Positions 13,490-40,451 of a stretch of DNA of 64,000 nucleotides are shown piece by piece (position 1 is the first letter of the stretch; every line of letters begins with the position of its first letter). The DNA comes from Stieleria magnilauensis. GTDB lineage: Bacteria; Planctomycetota; Planctomycetia; Pirellulales; Pirellulaceae. The position numbers and the translations under genes were made by a program. Location: contig CP036432.1 of NCBI GenBank assembly GCA_007753675.1, positions 10,697,381-10,761,380 of the forward strand. The letters run 5' to 3'. The notes beneath the pieces are model-generated. The model was not told the origin of the DNA and did no database searches. It worked only from the letters and a program-made list of their open reading frames with translations.

Positions 13490-13769
13490 GGGGTCTGTCC
13501 CCACACACACGAACCGGGGTCCACACGAACCGGGGTCTGTCCCCGAATCGATCTCTGGGGTCTGTCCCCGAATCGATCTCTGGGGTCTGTCCCCGAATCG
13601 ATCTCTGGGGTCTGTCCCCGAATCGATCTCTGGGGTCTGTCCCCGAATCGATCTCTGGGGTCTGTCCCCGAATCGATCATTTGATAGCAACCTCACGGAA
13701 CCAGCACCGGGGTCTGTCCCCGCGCATGGATCTGGGGTCTGTCCCCGCATGGATCTGGGGTCTGTCCCT
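13490..13769. repeat. GGGGTCTGTCCCC repeat cluster 1, with a six-unit 25-bp tandem array
   Basis: Nine exact copies of GGGGTCTGTCCCC start at 13490, 13532, 13557, 13582, 13607, 13632, 13657, 13709 and 13734. A near copy is at 13757 and a truncated one at 13516. Six of them (13532-13657) are spaced exactly 25 bp with the spacer GAATCGATCTCT. All copies are in the same orientation. The 13-mer is an imperfect palindrome (four G-C pairs, a T/T mismatch, then C-G around a central T). The same 13-mer recurs at 33.1, 34.3 and 35.9 kb around an HUH transposase gene. The 25-bp period is not a multiple of three, so the open frames across it are not genes. Confidence 0.92.
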
Positions 13770-33136: not shown

Positions 33137-33328
33137 AGGGACAGACCCCAACCATCCCATCATCCGGGGACAGACCCCGAGATTCACGAGTGTTCAGATC
33201 CGAATCATCCGGGGACAGACCCCGGTTGGCACGGGGACGGTTGGCACGGGGACAGACCCCGATTGGGTTGGCACGGGGACAGACCCCGGTTGGGACAACC
33301 ATCCAGTTAGATTCCGGAGGCAGACCCC
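33137..33328. repeat. GGGGACAGACCCC repeat cluster 2
   Basis: Exact copies start at 33166, 33211, 33248 and 33275. Near copies lie at 33137 (AGGG start) and 33316 (GGAGG start), and a truncated one at 33233. All read GGGGACAGACCCC on the plus strand, opposite to cluster 1. Spacers are variable but several contain GGTTGGCAC, so partial tandem duplication is visible. The cluster fills the gap 32950-33463 between DUF1579 and the L9-C-like gene; nothing else is visible in that gap. Confidence 0.9.
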
Positions 33329-33463
33329 GTAATTCACCATCCTTCGATAGGTCTACTGGAACGTCGAAATCGCAGAGAAGACGAAAGGAATCAAGACATG
33401 CTATATTCGATCGAGTCGTCTGATTGCAATCATTGTCAAATCCAACCGCCAATGGAGGTCACC

Positions 33464-34228
33464 ATGATAGGTTGGCTTAAGTCATTGTTTTCCAGACGGG
33501 AAAGGTGCGATCCTGAGCCGGATGATCTGTGGAACGCCATGGAATCGATGGATCCACGAAACTCTCTCGCTCGACTTTATCAGTTAAAGTTGGACTCGAA
33601 GCAATTTCCGGTCGTAAAGAGATTGCTCGACGGCACCCTTTCTCCGGCTGATTTCCCCGGCGTCACCGACTGGTGTCAAGCAGAAGCGGTGAATCCAACT
33701 GGAATGGACGCCCTGGCCTATGCCCTGCAACTTGCACTGAACAGTTCCGGCACACTCTATGTCATCCCGAAAGGTCAGATCGTTCCGGCTGCAATACTGC
33801 CAAAATTTGTCAGTCGGGGCCAGCTGACCATTGTCGTAAACCACATGGGCGGCACGCCTGTCCTTCTCACTTCGCTGGATGAGTATCTTTCGAGCAACAA
33901 CATCGTTGACTACTCGTTGGAAACCCTGACACCGTCAAAATGGCGTCGGCGATTGCCGAGTAAGTCGGATCGCGTTCGAGATCGCAACGTCACTCCAAGT
34001 GTCACGATTGAGAAGCGTACCAATGATCAAGGTCGTCTGCTGGAACCGTTGGCGGCGAACGATTTGGTCGCCGCGATCAATCAAGAACTAGACTACAATC
34101 TGACACCGGACCAGCTACTGAAGGATTCGCATCCCATCGATCAGTTAGGTCTCTACAATTTTGATGTCCAAATCGATCCCTCGAGCAAAAAGAAGATCAA
34201 CGTCTGGGTTGTTCCATCTGTGGATTAG
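33464..34228 (+). CDS. Unknown protein with C-terminal ribosomal-L9-C-like domain
   Basis: 254 residues from ATG 33464, which has GGAGGT 5 nt upstream. Residues about 1-165 match no family I recognise. The last 75 residues read VTIEKRTNDQGRLLEPLAAN, then LVAAINQEL, HPIDQLGLYNFDVQI and KKKINVWVV. This is the pattern of the C-terminal domain of ribosomal protein bL9, an identification from pattern only. Base composition is visibly lower in GC than the neighbours (45 and 55 percent in two 60-base lines counted), which suggests transfer. It is bracketed by repeat clusters 2 and 3. Confidence 0.7.
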   Translation: MIGWLKSLFSRRERCDPEPDDLWNAMESMDPRNSLARLYQLKLDSKQFPVVKRLLDGTLSPADFPGVTDWCQAEAVNPTGMDALAYALQLALNSSGTLYVIPKGQIVPAAILPKFVSRGQLTIVVNHMGGTPVLLTSLDEYLSSNNIVDYSLETLTPSKWRRRLPSKSDRVRDRNVTPSVTIEKRTNDQGRLLEPLAANDLVAAINQELDYNLTPDQLLKDSHPIDQLGLYNFDVQIDPSSKKKINVWVVPSVD

Positions 34229-34262
34229 GTAGGATCGAAGATCTAAAATCATCCACGCCAGT

Positions 34263-34356
34263 AGGGTCTGTCCCCAATGCTTTCCGTAGGGTCTGTCCCC
34301 AACAATGCTTTCCGTAGGGTCTGTCCCCAATGCTTTCCTCTTCGGGGACAGACCCC
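34263..34356. repeat. GGGGTCTGTCCCC-type repeat cluster 3 with inverted pair
   Basis: Three copies of AGGGTCTGTCCCC start at 34263, 34288 and 34316, each preceded by GT (GTAGGGTCTG). One copy of GGGGACAGACCCC in the opposite orientation starts at 34344. The last two can pair into a 12-bp stem. A 14-bp direct duplication (GACCCCGCGAGATT) follows at 34351-34378. The cluster lies between the L9-C-like gene and the 3' end of the HUH transposase gene. The rest of the 398-bp gap shows nothing. Confidence 0.9.
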
Positions 34357-34626
34357 GCGAGATTGACCCCGCGAGATTCCTCGGACAACTCGACGGGCGC
34401 CAGGGGGTTGCGCGCGTGGATCGGTCGATGCGGCATGAGAGGTCACGACGCCACTGTGGTGTCCTGTCCGGTGACCAGCGGCCTGTCAAGTTGGACACGC
34501 GGCTTCAACCGTTTGATAACTCACCGCGTTCGCGTCGCCCTCCGCGGTCACCGTGTGCAAATCCCGAGCGACTCGCAGCAGCGTGGTTTCGATTCCCTGG
34601 AAGGGATCGTTGAGAGGAGGGGTTCC

Positions 34627-35730
34627 CTAAGCCGCTTGGCCGAATAGGTCGCGGGCTTGCTTGGGCACGTAGAAACGACGCCCTGTCTGCTTGGTCCGCT
34701 CGGTATCGAGATGATCCGGCCGACCCGCGATAGTGGAAAACAGGCTGCCGAAGTTTGCGACGAGCGACAACCAAAGCGTCGGCGATAAACCAAGACGCTC
34801 CAAGATTGGCGGATATCCTTTCGGGGTGCAGCCTCGTTTGCCCGCAGCCAAATGACGAGCGCTCCAGTCCAACACCTCCAAGTAGTTCTCTTCGCTCATT
34901 GTGAGGAAGCCTTTATCGCTACAACGCGCGTTCGTTTTGCTCGGCTGCGGTCCAACTGGAGCATTTGCCTCGTGAAGATTCACGGGTGACAGAAAGGCGT
35001 CCGCACGGCGAGCTTGCGGAACGGCGGTTGGTGTATTGTCAACAACCGACGCGTTCGATTCGTCCGGTGGAGCCTGCTGTGAAGCCTGGACCGATTCGAC
35101 CCGCCGTTGTGCCGACGTATGGTCACTCAGCTCAATCGTCTCCGCGAGGCACGCTCGGATTAGATTCAGATCGACATAGACAGAACAGGCCAAAACAGCC
35201 TCTTCATCGACCAGCGGAACCGCCTTGAAGCGTCCTTCGAAAAAGTGCCCCCTCGTGTCGTCTTCCATGTGGGCGCGTTGAGCGATTCGCTGATTCAACA
35301 GACGCATCCACCAGGAAATGTTGCTCAGCCGCTCGCGGATCTCGGCAAGCTTCTTGGGACATTTCCGAATGCGATCCAGTTCCGAAGCTGACGGCGCCAT
35401 CGGATTGCCCTGGTCGTCTCGTCGCTCGGGGCAAATCATCAGCCAGCGCCGGGCCACTTCGGTGTCGTCCCACGTCTTTACGATGTCAGCGCGGGATCGC
35501 AGCACGAGGTGGAAGTGGTTGGAAAGAATGGCGAAGGACAGTAAGTCGATCGCGAAGCACGCTGCAAAACGTTGGAGGTACTCTTCGATCCAGACTTTAC
35601 GGTGGTCGTAGTTCTTGCCTGAGATCGCATCCTCGCCGAAGAGCCAGCAAGCACGCGTGGTTCGGCTGATGACGTGAAAGACTTGAACTTCGCTCGGATC
35701 CACCACTTCGCAACGATTGGATCTTGCCAT
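34627..35730 (-). CDS. IS200-like HUH (RAYT-type) transposase
   Basis: 367 residues from ATG 35730, with GGGGAG 8 nt upstream. The Y1_Tnp (IS200/RAYT) fold is shown by VFHVISRTTRACWLF, the HUH motif LSNHFHLVLRSR (His72, His74) and the segment GHFFEGRFKAVPLV then CSVYVDLNLIRACLAE, where the catalytic Tyr is expected. The unusually long C-terminal region (about 240-367) is not part of the minimal domain. RAYTs cut and paste REP palindromes as single strands (known). Here the gene lies between two clusters of the same palindrome, 270 bp and 163 bp away. No IS ends were found. Confidence 0.88.
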   Translation of the reverse strand: MARSNRCEVVDPSEVQVFHVISRTTRACWLFGEDAISGKNYDHRKVWIEEYLQRFAACFAIDLLSFAILSNHFHLVLRSRADIVKTWDDTEVARRWLMICPERRDDQGNPMAPSASELDRIRKCPKKLAEIRERLSNISWWMRLLNQRIAQRAHMEDDTRGHFFEGRFKAVPLVDEEAVLACSVYVDLNLIRACLAETIELSDHTSAQRRVESVQASQQAPPDESNASVVDNTPTAVPQARRADAFLSPVNLHEANAPVGPQPSKTNARCSDKGFLTMSEENYLEVLDWSARHLAAGKRGCTPKGYPPILERLGLSPTLWLSLVANFGSLFSTIAGRPDHLDTERTKQTGRRFYVPKQARDLFGQAA

Positions 35731-35892
35731 CGCAGAGTCTCCCCAACTCGTTTCAGGAAACTGCTGCGGGATTGAGGATCTTTCTCAACCATTCGCAGCG
35801 AAACTAACGAGTAATCGTGATACTCTGCCTAACTACACCCATTCCACCCGAATGGTCCTTGGAAGTCAAGTAAAAAAATGACGAACAAGCGT

Positions 35893-36164
35893 GCGAGATC
35901 TTGCAGGGACAGACCCCGAATCTTGGACAGACCCTACGGGTCCTGGGGTCTGTCCCCGTTCGAATTTTGCGAGATCTTGCAGGGACAGACCCCGAATCTT
36001 GGACAGACCCTACGGGTCCTGGGGTCTGTCCCCGTTCGAATTCCCGGTGGGTTGGGGACTGTCCCCGGTGGGTTGTTCGGTGAGTTGGGGACTGTCCCCG
36101 GTGGGTTGTTCGGTAAGTCGGGGTCTGTCCCCGGTGGGTTGTTAATAAGTCGGGGTCTGTCCCC
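35893..36164. repeat. GGGGTCTGTCCCC-type repeat cluster 4 with a 76-bp tandem duplication
   Basis: Two near-identical 76-bp units begin at 35893 and 35969. Each contains AGGGACAGACCCC (35905, 35981) followed by GGGGTCTGTCCCC in opposite orientation (35945, 36021), a facing pair. Four further units then follow with 33, 33 and 32 bp spacing: GGGGACTGTCCCC at 36054 and 36087, and GGGGTCTGTCCCC at 36120 and 36152, joined by GGTGGGTTGTTCGGT-type spacers. The GGGGACTGTCCCC variant is fully self-complementary but for its centre. The array abuts the stop codon of the glycosylase gene at 36174. Confidence 0.92.
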
Positions 36165-38852: not shown

Positions 38853-39019
38853 TTCCGCCACGGCAGAACCAGAGAGATGATTGGGAAGAGGGTTTTACAT
38901 GGATACGATAGGCAGGTGGCAAGCCGGTCGGATGGAAGGTGCACGCGGCCTGAATGGGTTCTTTGCGGCGGCAATTGTTCAGCGGTGACCGTCGACCCTC
39001 CCCTCGCTTCGCTCGACCC

Positions 39020-40451
39020 CATAGGCATCAAGTTAAGGAATATTCGAGCAAGTTGGGATCGCGGAGCAATTCCGCAGTTCCCGGCTTTTTCCGCCTTTTT
39101 GTTCGCTTGCAGATCGGTAGGACTCGGTTTCGGATTTTTGCGAGATATTCGCAAAGTCTTGAATGCGATACGAGGCAACTGGCCAATTCATCCATCCAAT
39201 TTGCAAGCCGCTTAGCTATCTTTGCGAAGCTTAGCGATGAATTCTCGAACCAGCCCGCCAGTATGACCAACCACTGCTGGAGAAGTGCACCACAGAGGCG
39301 GACCCAAAACCGGGCCATCGAAATGGTGTCCGTGCGCCCATCCATCAGATCGATCTGGCAGTACGTTTTCCATCGCTTGAAGAGCAATTCAATTTGCCAG
39401 CGGCTGCGGTACAAAACGATCGCCTCTTGGACGCTCAATTGCTCTACTGCAAGATTGGTGGCTAAAAAGTTCCAGTCGCAAGCCGCCAAGCGGTCCTGAC
39501 TCGGTGTACGGCCCTTCTTTTTCGCCCGTTTGCGAACTTCCCTGCGACGTTTCGCGGCGATTGCCTTGGGGATTCGCCATGCGATCAATCGGCAGTCCAG
39601 CGGAGTGCCTTGGCCGACTGTGACGTCGCAGTCGATCAGTGAGTCATTTTGTCGGCTCAGCCAAGCAACTAGCCCTTCGGAGTGATCGTCCACCTTGATT
39701 TTCACGTTGTAAAGCAATCGCGTCAGGAAAAAGGCTCCCCACGCTGCATAACACGAAAGGACGGCGGATGAGAAATAGCCGAGGTCAGCGATTCGAAGTG
39801 AGCCTTTCTGGAGTGGCACGACTTGACGGTTTGTTGCCTGATCGGGCGACTTCCCTGGTTCGAGTTGAATGCACTGCAACTCCCCATTGGCCAGGTCAAG
39901 TTCGGTTTGAAGCTTCACTGCAGCGGTATTGTGCTCCCCTACACCGCCACAACCTGCAAATTCTGCTGCCAAACTCGGCGGCAAGCTGATCACCGAACTG
40001 TCGATCAGCTTGACCGACGTAAATCGTTCCAAAAGCGGGGCGAGCTTCGACTCGGAGTGCATGACCTGCATACTCATCTTGGCAAACAGCGAACGAAAGA
40101 AGGCGACCAATTGATCGCTATATCGTTGCTCAACGGCCTGGGGAGAAATCGTCAGCCCCACAGAAGCAGCCATGCTGGCAATGTCCTCCTCGTTGGCGGT
40201 CGGTTTGGCTAGCATGGCCAAAATGAACGACTTCGCGAGCGTTGAGGCATCAAACTTTCGTCGTCGTTTGATGACCTTGGATTCGGCGGCAGATTGCTCG
40301 GCAAGTTCTCCGAAACTGGTCTGTAACAAAGTGGCCAATCGATCTATGGTCTTCACGGCGGAAACTCCTTCTTCCGAGGTTGTGGTGATAACTACCTCAT
40401 GAAGGTTTTTCCGCTTTTTTTCTACCTCAATTCCTTAACTTGGTGCGTATG
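39020..40451. mobile_element. IS4-family insertion sequence with 22-bp terminal inverted repeats
   Basis: The left end CATAGGCATCAAGTTAAGGAAT (39020-39041) matches the complement of the right end (40430-40451) at 20 of 22 positions. One transposase gene fills the interior, with its stop codon inside the left end. Directly outside both ends is an identical 20-bp direct repeat, CCCCTCGCTTCGCTCGACCC, at 39000-39019 and 40452-40471. That is longer than usual IS4 target duplications, so it may be a pre-existing repeat or hotspot. Confidence 0.82.
39028..40356 (-). CDS. IS4-family DDE transposase
   Basis: 442 residues from GTG 40356, with AAGGAG 8 nt upstream. Likely catalytic residues: Asp in SVKLIDSSVISLP, Asp in SLRIADLGYFS, and Glu in the IS4 YREK-type motif YRSRWQIELLFKRWK. 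The region KRRREVRKRAKKKG is basic and probably contacts DNA. The reading frame is intact from end to end, so the element may be active. Only this gene is present in the element. Confidence 0.9.
   Translation of the reverse strand: MKTIDRLATLLQTSFGELAEQSAAESKVIKRRRKFDASTLAKSFILAMLAKPTANEEDIASMAASVGLTISPQAVEQRYSDQLVAFFRSLFAKMSMQVMHSESKLAPLLERFTSVKLIDSSVISLPPSLAAEFAGCGGVGEHNTAAVKLQTELDLANGELQCIQLEPGKSPDQATNRQVVPLQKGSLRIADLGYFSSAVLSCYAAWGAFFLTRLLYNVKIKVDDHSEGLVAWLSRQNDSLIDCDVTVGQGTPLDCRLIAWRIPKAIAAKRRREVRKRAKKKGRTPSQDRLAACDWNFLATNLAVEQLSVQEAIVLYRSRWQIELLFKRWKTYCQIDLMDGRTDTISMARFWVRLCGALLQQWLVILAGWFENSSLSFAKIAKRLANWMDELASCLVSHSRLCEYLAKIRNRVLPICKRTKRRKKPGTAELLRDPNLLEYSLT

Follow-up and report, generated by a model that had tools for sequence, protein, structure and literature searches.

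Elements described in 2013 as TIRtrons consist of an HUH Y1 transposase gene between terminal inverted repeats (TIRs; PMC3733652). In the parts of that description available to us, some published TIRs share the consensus GGGGWSAS, some families also occur as dimers or clusters elsewhere in the genome, R. baltica carries many tyrosine transposase genes and flanking repeats, intragenic repetitive extragenic palindromes (REPs) are already described, and TIRtrons are suggested to shed light on REP origin. A later classification, likewise available in part, places 20 of 26 published TIR-associated tyrosine transposases (TIRYTs) in subclass 2.1; it gives subclass 2.3 the signatures NHYH and YVDLNP, a median HUH-Y distance of 110 and a length of ~325 aa, and reports it without identifiable REP-like flanking structures and in many copies in some genomes (PMC6006769). 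Here we analyse 64,000 nucleotides of Stieleria magnilauensis (“the window,” positions 10697381–10761380 of contig C1 in genome G000, a single contig of 10.77 Mb), in which an HUH transposase gene lies between clusters of a 13-nt repeat. The origin of REPs is an open question, on which related enzymes in one genus with matched, differing 13-nt ends bear directly, and this marine planctomycete system is a little-studied relative of the known systems of REPs and REP-associated tyrosine transposases (RAYTs).

The window gene is probably a TIRYT, that is, an HUH Y1 transposase (a kind of enzyme acting on single-stranded DNA) whose recognised ends would be a clade-specific 13-nt motif and whose mobile unit would be array-gene-array. 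Of the kinds described, the TIRtron/TIRYT and not the REPtron/RAYT comes closest, and a TIRtron with multiplied ends, rather than canonical REP/RAYT, is the best fit to what we observed: gene and repeat are associated, motif and enzyme clade are matched, the array-gene-array block is present in some genomes and absent from others, and solo arrays differ in presence and copy number.

The flanks of 86 homologue loci were fetched and compared, and the end motif they yield has the general form GGKGMCA followed by a six-base part that varies by enzyme clade: GGGGACAGACCCC in clade A (to which the window gene belongs), GGGGACA[CT]GGCAC in clade B, GGGGACA[CGT]AGCAC in clade C and GGTGCCACCCACC in clade D. 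An automatic search recovered an inverted pair of the GGKGMCA type in 49 of the 86 loci, the other 37 including many clade A loci or distant relatives in which copies are few or absent. The GGGGWSAS consensus is matched by GGGGACAG of the window motif, and GGTGCCAC of clade D lies outside it. Single 13-mers fold in clades A and D only (flanked versions were folded for six loci), the clade B and C motifs being asymmetric; the “imperfect palindrome” of the first-pass annotation therefore holds for the clade A motif but not as a general trait. Within 600 bp upstream and 800 bp downstream of the gene, 62 of 69 copies point inward in clade B, 103 of 105 in clade C and 50 of 51 in clade D, and inward motifs stand at both ends of 9/9 B, 18/20 C, 12/19 D and 3/11 A loci. 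At least one outward copy occurs at 8 of 11 clade A loci vs. 4 of 29 B and C loci (Fisher P = 7e-4, with orthologous loci not independent). Two simpler rules were abandoned: that any palindromic end loses orientation (clade D folds yet keeps its inward copies), and that motif position 8 is a specificity code, since the G004c–f elements carry GGGGACACAGCAC upstream but GGGGACAGAGCAC downstream, so that both ends of one element differ there. By eye, metagenome-assembled genomes named Schlesneria, Planctomyces or Planctomycetaceae show GGGGACACAGC-type ends. The GGGGACA motif is absent from the gammaproteobacterial relatives L142 and L143, the former showing an inverted TAGACACCCCG/CGGGGTGTCTA, by eye only.

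Motif and enzyme vary together. The enzyme tree holds 67 proteins (19 of the 86 loci were left out for insufficient motif support), and over its 61 classed loci (six more rows have no motif class) the motif class changes 5 times, vs. at least 29 times in 300 shuffles and at least 16 times in 300 shuffles within genomes; the fifth change is due to G005b, labelled A despite its place outside clade A on the tree. Motif labels come from flanks and the tree from proteins, orthologous loci (e.g., G000a, G001c, G002a, G013b) are not independent, and because flanks and proteins are inherited together the agreement represents matching by descent, not recognition. Genome-wide counts, made in 60 genomes for the clade A and B motifs but not the C motif, show motif copies tracking the enzyme clade, a co-occurrence that the first-pass annotation had proposed to check in relatives. 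Gene presence here means presence among the matches listed, which may miss small fragments. Copies of the clade A motif number 58–231 in each of the 6 genomes with a clade A gene; outside these carriers there are 74 in G005, 39 in G034, 1–8 in six genomes and none in 46. The clade B motif has 8–25 copies in exactly the 7 of 7 genomes with a clade B gene, 1 copy in each of four others and none in 49. G009 (85% complete) holds the B gene and the B motif and neither the A gene nor the A motif. The 13-mer is thus not, in general, equally abundant without this transposase clade, an outcome that the earlier annotation had named as fatal to its proposal, although G005 and G034 are exceptions. In G034, of the same family but another genus, many 13-mers form pairs spaced by 31 bp, recurring ~390 bp further along, with GGGGTCAGGTTCC nearby, and G005 has some facing motif pairs, 49 bp apart.

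Homologues at E 0.001 or better occur, among the matches listed, in 45 of 60 genomes (its own included), with all 14 genomes of the genus among them, and some genomes carry several similar copies. A second copy of the gene in G000 (G000:C1:2767104-2768204) differs from the first at 1 of 367 residues and also lies between arrays; further paralogues there are 62, 50, and 39% identical to the window protein. At this second locus G000 and G001 have array-gene-array, whereas G002 and G013 have the same flanks with neither the gene nor any motif core between them. Because ~45 bases on the left and 150–250 on the right find no place in the alignment, neither the exact ends nor any target duplication can be read there. 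G001, G002, and G013 share the position of the gene at the window locus, where G006 matches on one flank; this insertion is old. On one contig stretch of G006 (G006:C81:129180-136379), the window locus supplies the upstream flank and the second locus the downstream flank, the result either of recombination between both gene copies or of misassembly.

The enzyme itself has a TnpA-like (HUH Y1) fold, with 4er8 among the matches, and H72, H74, and Y185 are invariant across an alignment of 14 members, the window protein included. With 111 residues from H74 to Y185, NHFH, and YVDLNL (YVDLNP in 8 of the 13 other alignment rows), its signatures fit TnpAY1 subclass 2.3, near but not letter-perfect, when judged by the published description. 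The likeness, as far as the available parts of that description go, extends to the NH-aromatic-H and YVDLN motifs, the HUH-Y distance, the long protein (367 aa) and the many copies in some genomes; what differs is the flanking motif found in clades A to D.

The features of the window are collected in Table 1. Much of what the first-pass annotation had described at this locus was recovered: the intact gene and its open frame, all four clusters (with slightly different limits for two of them, which it had placed at 33137–33328 and 35893–36164, a further degenerate copy being readable by eye near 33328), and 18 exact copies of GGGGTCTGTCCCC plus one-base variants. With 9 one-mismatch copies the total is 27, vs. 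0.07 expected from 100 dinucleotide shuffles. Its statement that the gene has no insertion sequence ends of its own is probably wrong, because the flanking clusters, which here carry motif copies of mixed orientation on both sides, look like such ends. The genome-wide count that it had proposed gives 127 exact copies in G000 (85 forward, 42 reverse), and the reversed control pattern has 0 matches across the whole genome. GTAG precedes a few window copies (e.g., at 34261) but not the arrays elsewhere.

Table 1. Repeat arrays and transposase gene in the window (window coordinates).
Feature	Position	Strand	Description
Solo array between two open frames	13490..13769	+	10 copies; clade A gene 21 kb off
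Further cluster	33137..33287	-	5 copies; past neighbouring gene 33398-34228
Downstream end array	34263..34356		4 copies: an exact one in reverse, 3 forward ones each with a single mismatch
Block 99.3% identical around second gene copy	34512..35877		1366 bp; ends short of arrays
HUH Y1 transposase gene, clade A	34627..35730	-	Open 367-aa frame, NHFH motif
Upstream end array, before gene start	35905..36164		8 copies, mixed orientation: 4 exact, 4 one-mismatch

Most arrays stand apart from any gene of the clade. The G000 stretches examined comprise 25 cluster rows (20 with at least 2 core copies; clusters near 10.26 and 10.29 Mb were left out), and only the window clusters at 33–36 kb and L040 lie within ~2.5 kb of a clade A gene. 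Most G000 arrays have the 12-mer GGGTCTGTCCCC as common core, and many run head-to-tail with a spacer that varies little or not at all inside one array but changes from array to array, such as the GAATCGATCTCT of the window solo array, where the period is mostly 25 bp. In the clusters examined, neighbours within 100 bp are in the same orientation in 137 pairs vs. 4 in opposite orientation, and 62 of the 137 spacings are exactly 21 bp, units of one array not being independent. Across all loci, 40 of 93 arrays of at least 3 units have a repeated spacing; with clades mixed and orthologous arrays included, the modal period is 21 bp in 14 of the 40 and 20–22 bp in 20. Frame-keeping as the sole cause of the 21-bp period was rejected, in that periods of 20–22 bp, 21 bp among them, also occur beside transposase genes, where there is no frame to keep. 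Periods are shorter in some clade C arrays (17 and 19 bp), and a clade B array has one of 23 bp (L127, L123, and L042, in G010, G007, and G000, respectively); array periods may be clade-specific. A long hairpin, AATGGGACC...GGTCCCATT, was seen by eye beside the arrays in several G000 solo clusters (L050, L051, L053, L055, L058).

Two arrays lie in frame within genes, so that these repeats can be seen entering coding sequence. The first gene has a weak LPG_synthase_TM match (E 5.4e-5, under cut-off) and carries 17 heptad units in G000, 14 in G001, 11 in G003 and 4 in G006, with none in G002, G013, or G005. The second, of no clear family, has 8 units in G000, 17 in G001, 3 in G003, 4 in G006 and 0 in G013, a comparison that does not extend to G002, where the frame was not recovered. 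In G003 and G006 (L225, L226) the array-bearing gene has a second in-frame insert of ~50 codons, unrelated-looking (SPSR..REGRA...PSQREG).

We propose that the enzyme would cut single strands at the motif, as its fold suggests, and that the whole array-gene-array unit may occasionally be moved, while single motif-bearing pieces would be moved or re-inserted more often. Such pieces could then grow into head-to-tail arrays of ~21 bp per unit (the 13-nt motif plus ~8 nt of local sequence), driven by enzyme activity, replication slippage, or the two together. Several observations weigh against this TIRYT reading. On its own, the window protein hits no Pfam family up to E 10, and its NCBIfam match reaches only E 0.011, far under the cut-off. 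Neither a cleavage site nor a target duplication or an intermediate was detected. The constant place of the gene at the window locus indicates that it moves rarely, and the second-locus block is not polarised: two genomes with it and two without leave gain and loss indistinguishable, and its absence from G002 and G013 could be clean loss. In G005 and G034 the clade A motif is present, with no clade A gene among the matches listed; none lies beside their copies at the 4 places examined (8 overlapping loci). Upstream of G005's own enzymes stands the one-base variant GGGGACAGACCTC, and the G034 copies, with no homologue nearby at the 2 places examined, stay unexplained. Lastly, 50 clade A copies point inward and 45 outward (of 95), and because the inverted arrangement is lost there, clade A ends, the window's included, are TIRs by descent only.

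That loss admits a further, tentative reading, in which clade A is a REP family arising from a TIR: self-complementary, with orientation lost, and with enzyme-made ~21-nt units seeding arrays, including in frame within genes. Its motif, GGGG-ACAGA-CCCC, is self-complementary, free of orientation and commoner than those of clades B and D (58–231 per genome vs. 8–25 for B). Yet the clade D motif is also self-complementary, and there orientation is kept (50/51) and numbers are modest. If such a step from TIR to REP did occur, the clade series would be a readable code between an HUH enzyme and its 13-nt end. Asymmetric and self-complementary ends across species make both the recognition residues and this step testable.

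The first-pass annotation had read the locus as REP/RAYT, with the enzyme a RAYT and the 13-mer a REP of unrelated sequence. Part of this stands, and is what the system shares with REPtrons (TnpAREP): the HUH Y1 fold, with 4er8 among its matches, short repeats both flanking the gene and dispersed (>100 copies in G000), a repeat type that tracks the enzyme, and self-complementary motifs in clades A and D. As a kind of system, however, canonical REP/RAYT is unlikely: the GT[AG]G foot is not general, the B and C motifs are asymmetric and unfolded, copies in B, C, and D point inward, array-gene-array is present or absent as a block, some relatives have several similar gene copies with their own ends, and neighbours in the G000 clusters examined are nearly all head-to-tail rather than in the facing pairs of REP doublet hairpins (REPINs) and bacterial interspersed mosaic elements (BIMEs). 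Very unlikely, in turn, is a target-site preference by which the element inserts into existing 13-mer arrays. Both G000 gene copies do lie between arrays, and the 99.3% identical block does stop short of them, but the gene-less sites in G002 and G013 (two genomes, one locus) lack any motif copy, and each enzyme clade has its own motif, inward-pointing in B, C, and D.

Two other explanations concern the arrays themselves. Possibly, though we doubt it, the 13-mer is an element end and the solo arrays are passive remnants, old and grown by slippage only, on which the enzyme is inactive; spacers that are locus-specific and mostly homogeneous per array, and a copy number that drifts between species, are in keeping with this. 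Yet the same core, with spacers that differ, recurs at ~25 places across the G000 stretches examined and so must have been dispersed, and periods of 20–22 bp recur in half of the 40 arrays, including beside transposase genes without a kept frame. Dispersal and period clustering do not, however, demonstrate array growth driven by the enzyme. The dominance of the 21-bp period in G000 would also suit double-strand binding sites two helical turns apart, bound by the transposase or by a host protein and serving a regulatory or iteron-like role; this we consider improbable, as some arrays of other clades run at 17, 19, and 23 bp (few arrays), the window solo array runs at 25 bp, and some arrays lie inside genes.

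The TIRtron with multiplied ends thus remains the best fit, and resembles the TIRtrons of the published descriptions, in their available parts, in its RAYT-like HUH gene, GGGGWSAS ends and repeats clustered elsewhere in the genome. It is set apart from them by an enzyme that is 2.3-like, not 2.1, by 13-nt ends repeated in arrays that often show a 21-bp period and have locus-specific spacers, and by the clade-matched motif series, the lost orientation of clade A and the in-frame arrays in genes, all features absent from those parts of the TIRtron description. A literature search with the 13-mer, its 12-mer core and three related motifs on both strands, the clade D motif left out, returned only papers unrelated by title; the name TIRYT is used with this meaning in 2 of 8 papers listed. 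IS200/IS605 elements have subterminal hairpins in one orientation as ends. They share with this system the HUH Y1 fold and the several similar copies per genome in some relatives; here, by contrast, the ends are inverted motif arrays and the end motifs also occur alone in arrays. As for hairpins near the ends, judged on the motifs themselves, those of clades A and D fold and those of B and C do not.

Replication-strand bias of the arrays could not be told from GC skew, which was too noisy in twenty 20-kb samples. Among the matches listed, the G000 13-mers are all on the + strand at 0.56–2.77 Mb and mostly on the - strand at 3.1–5.1 Mb. The window also holds, at 38986–39038, a short repeat with CTCCCCTCGCTTCGCTCGACC, which has many near-identical copies, again among the matches listed, in G001, G002, G006, and G013.
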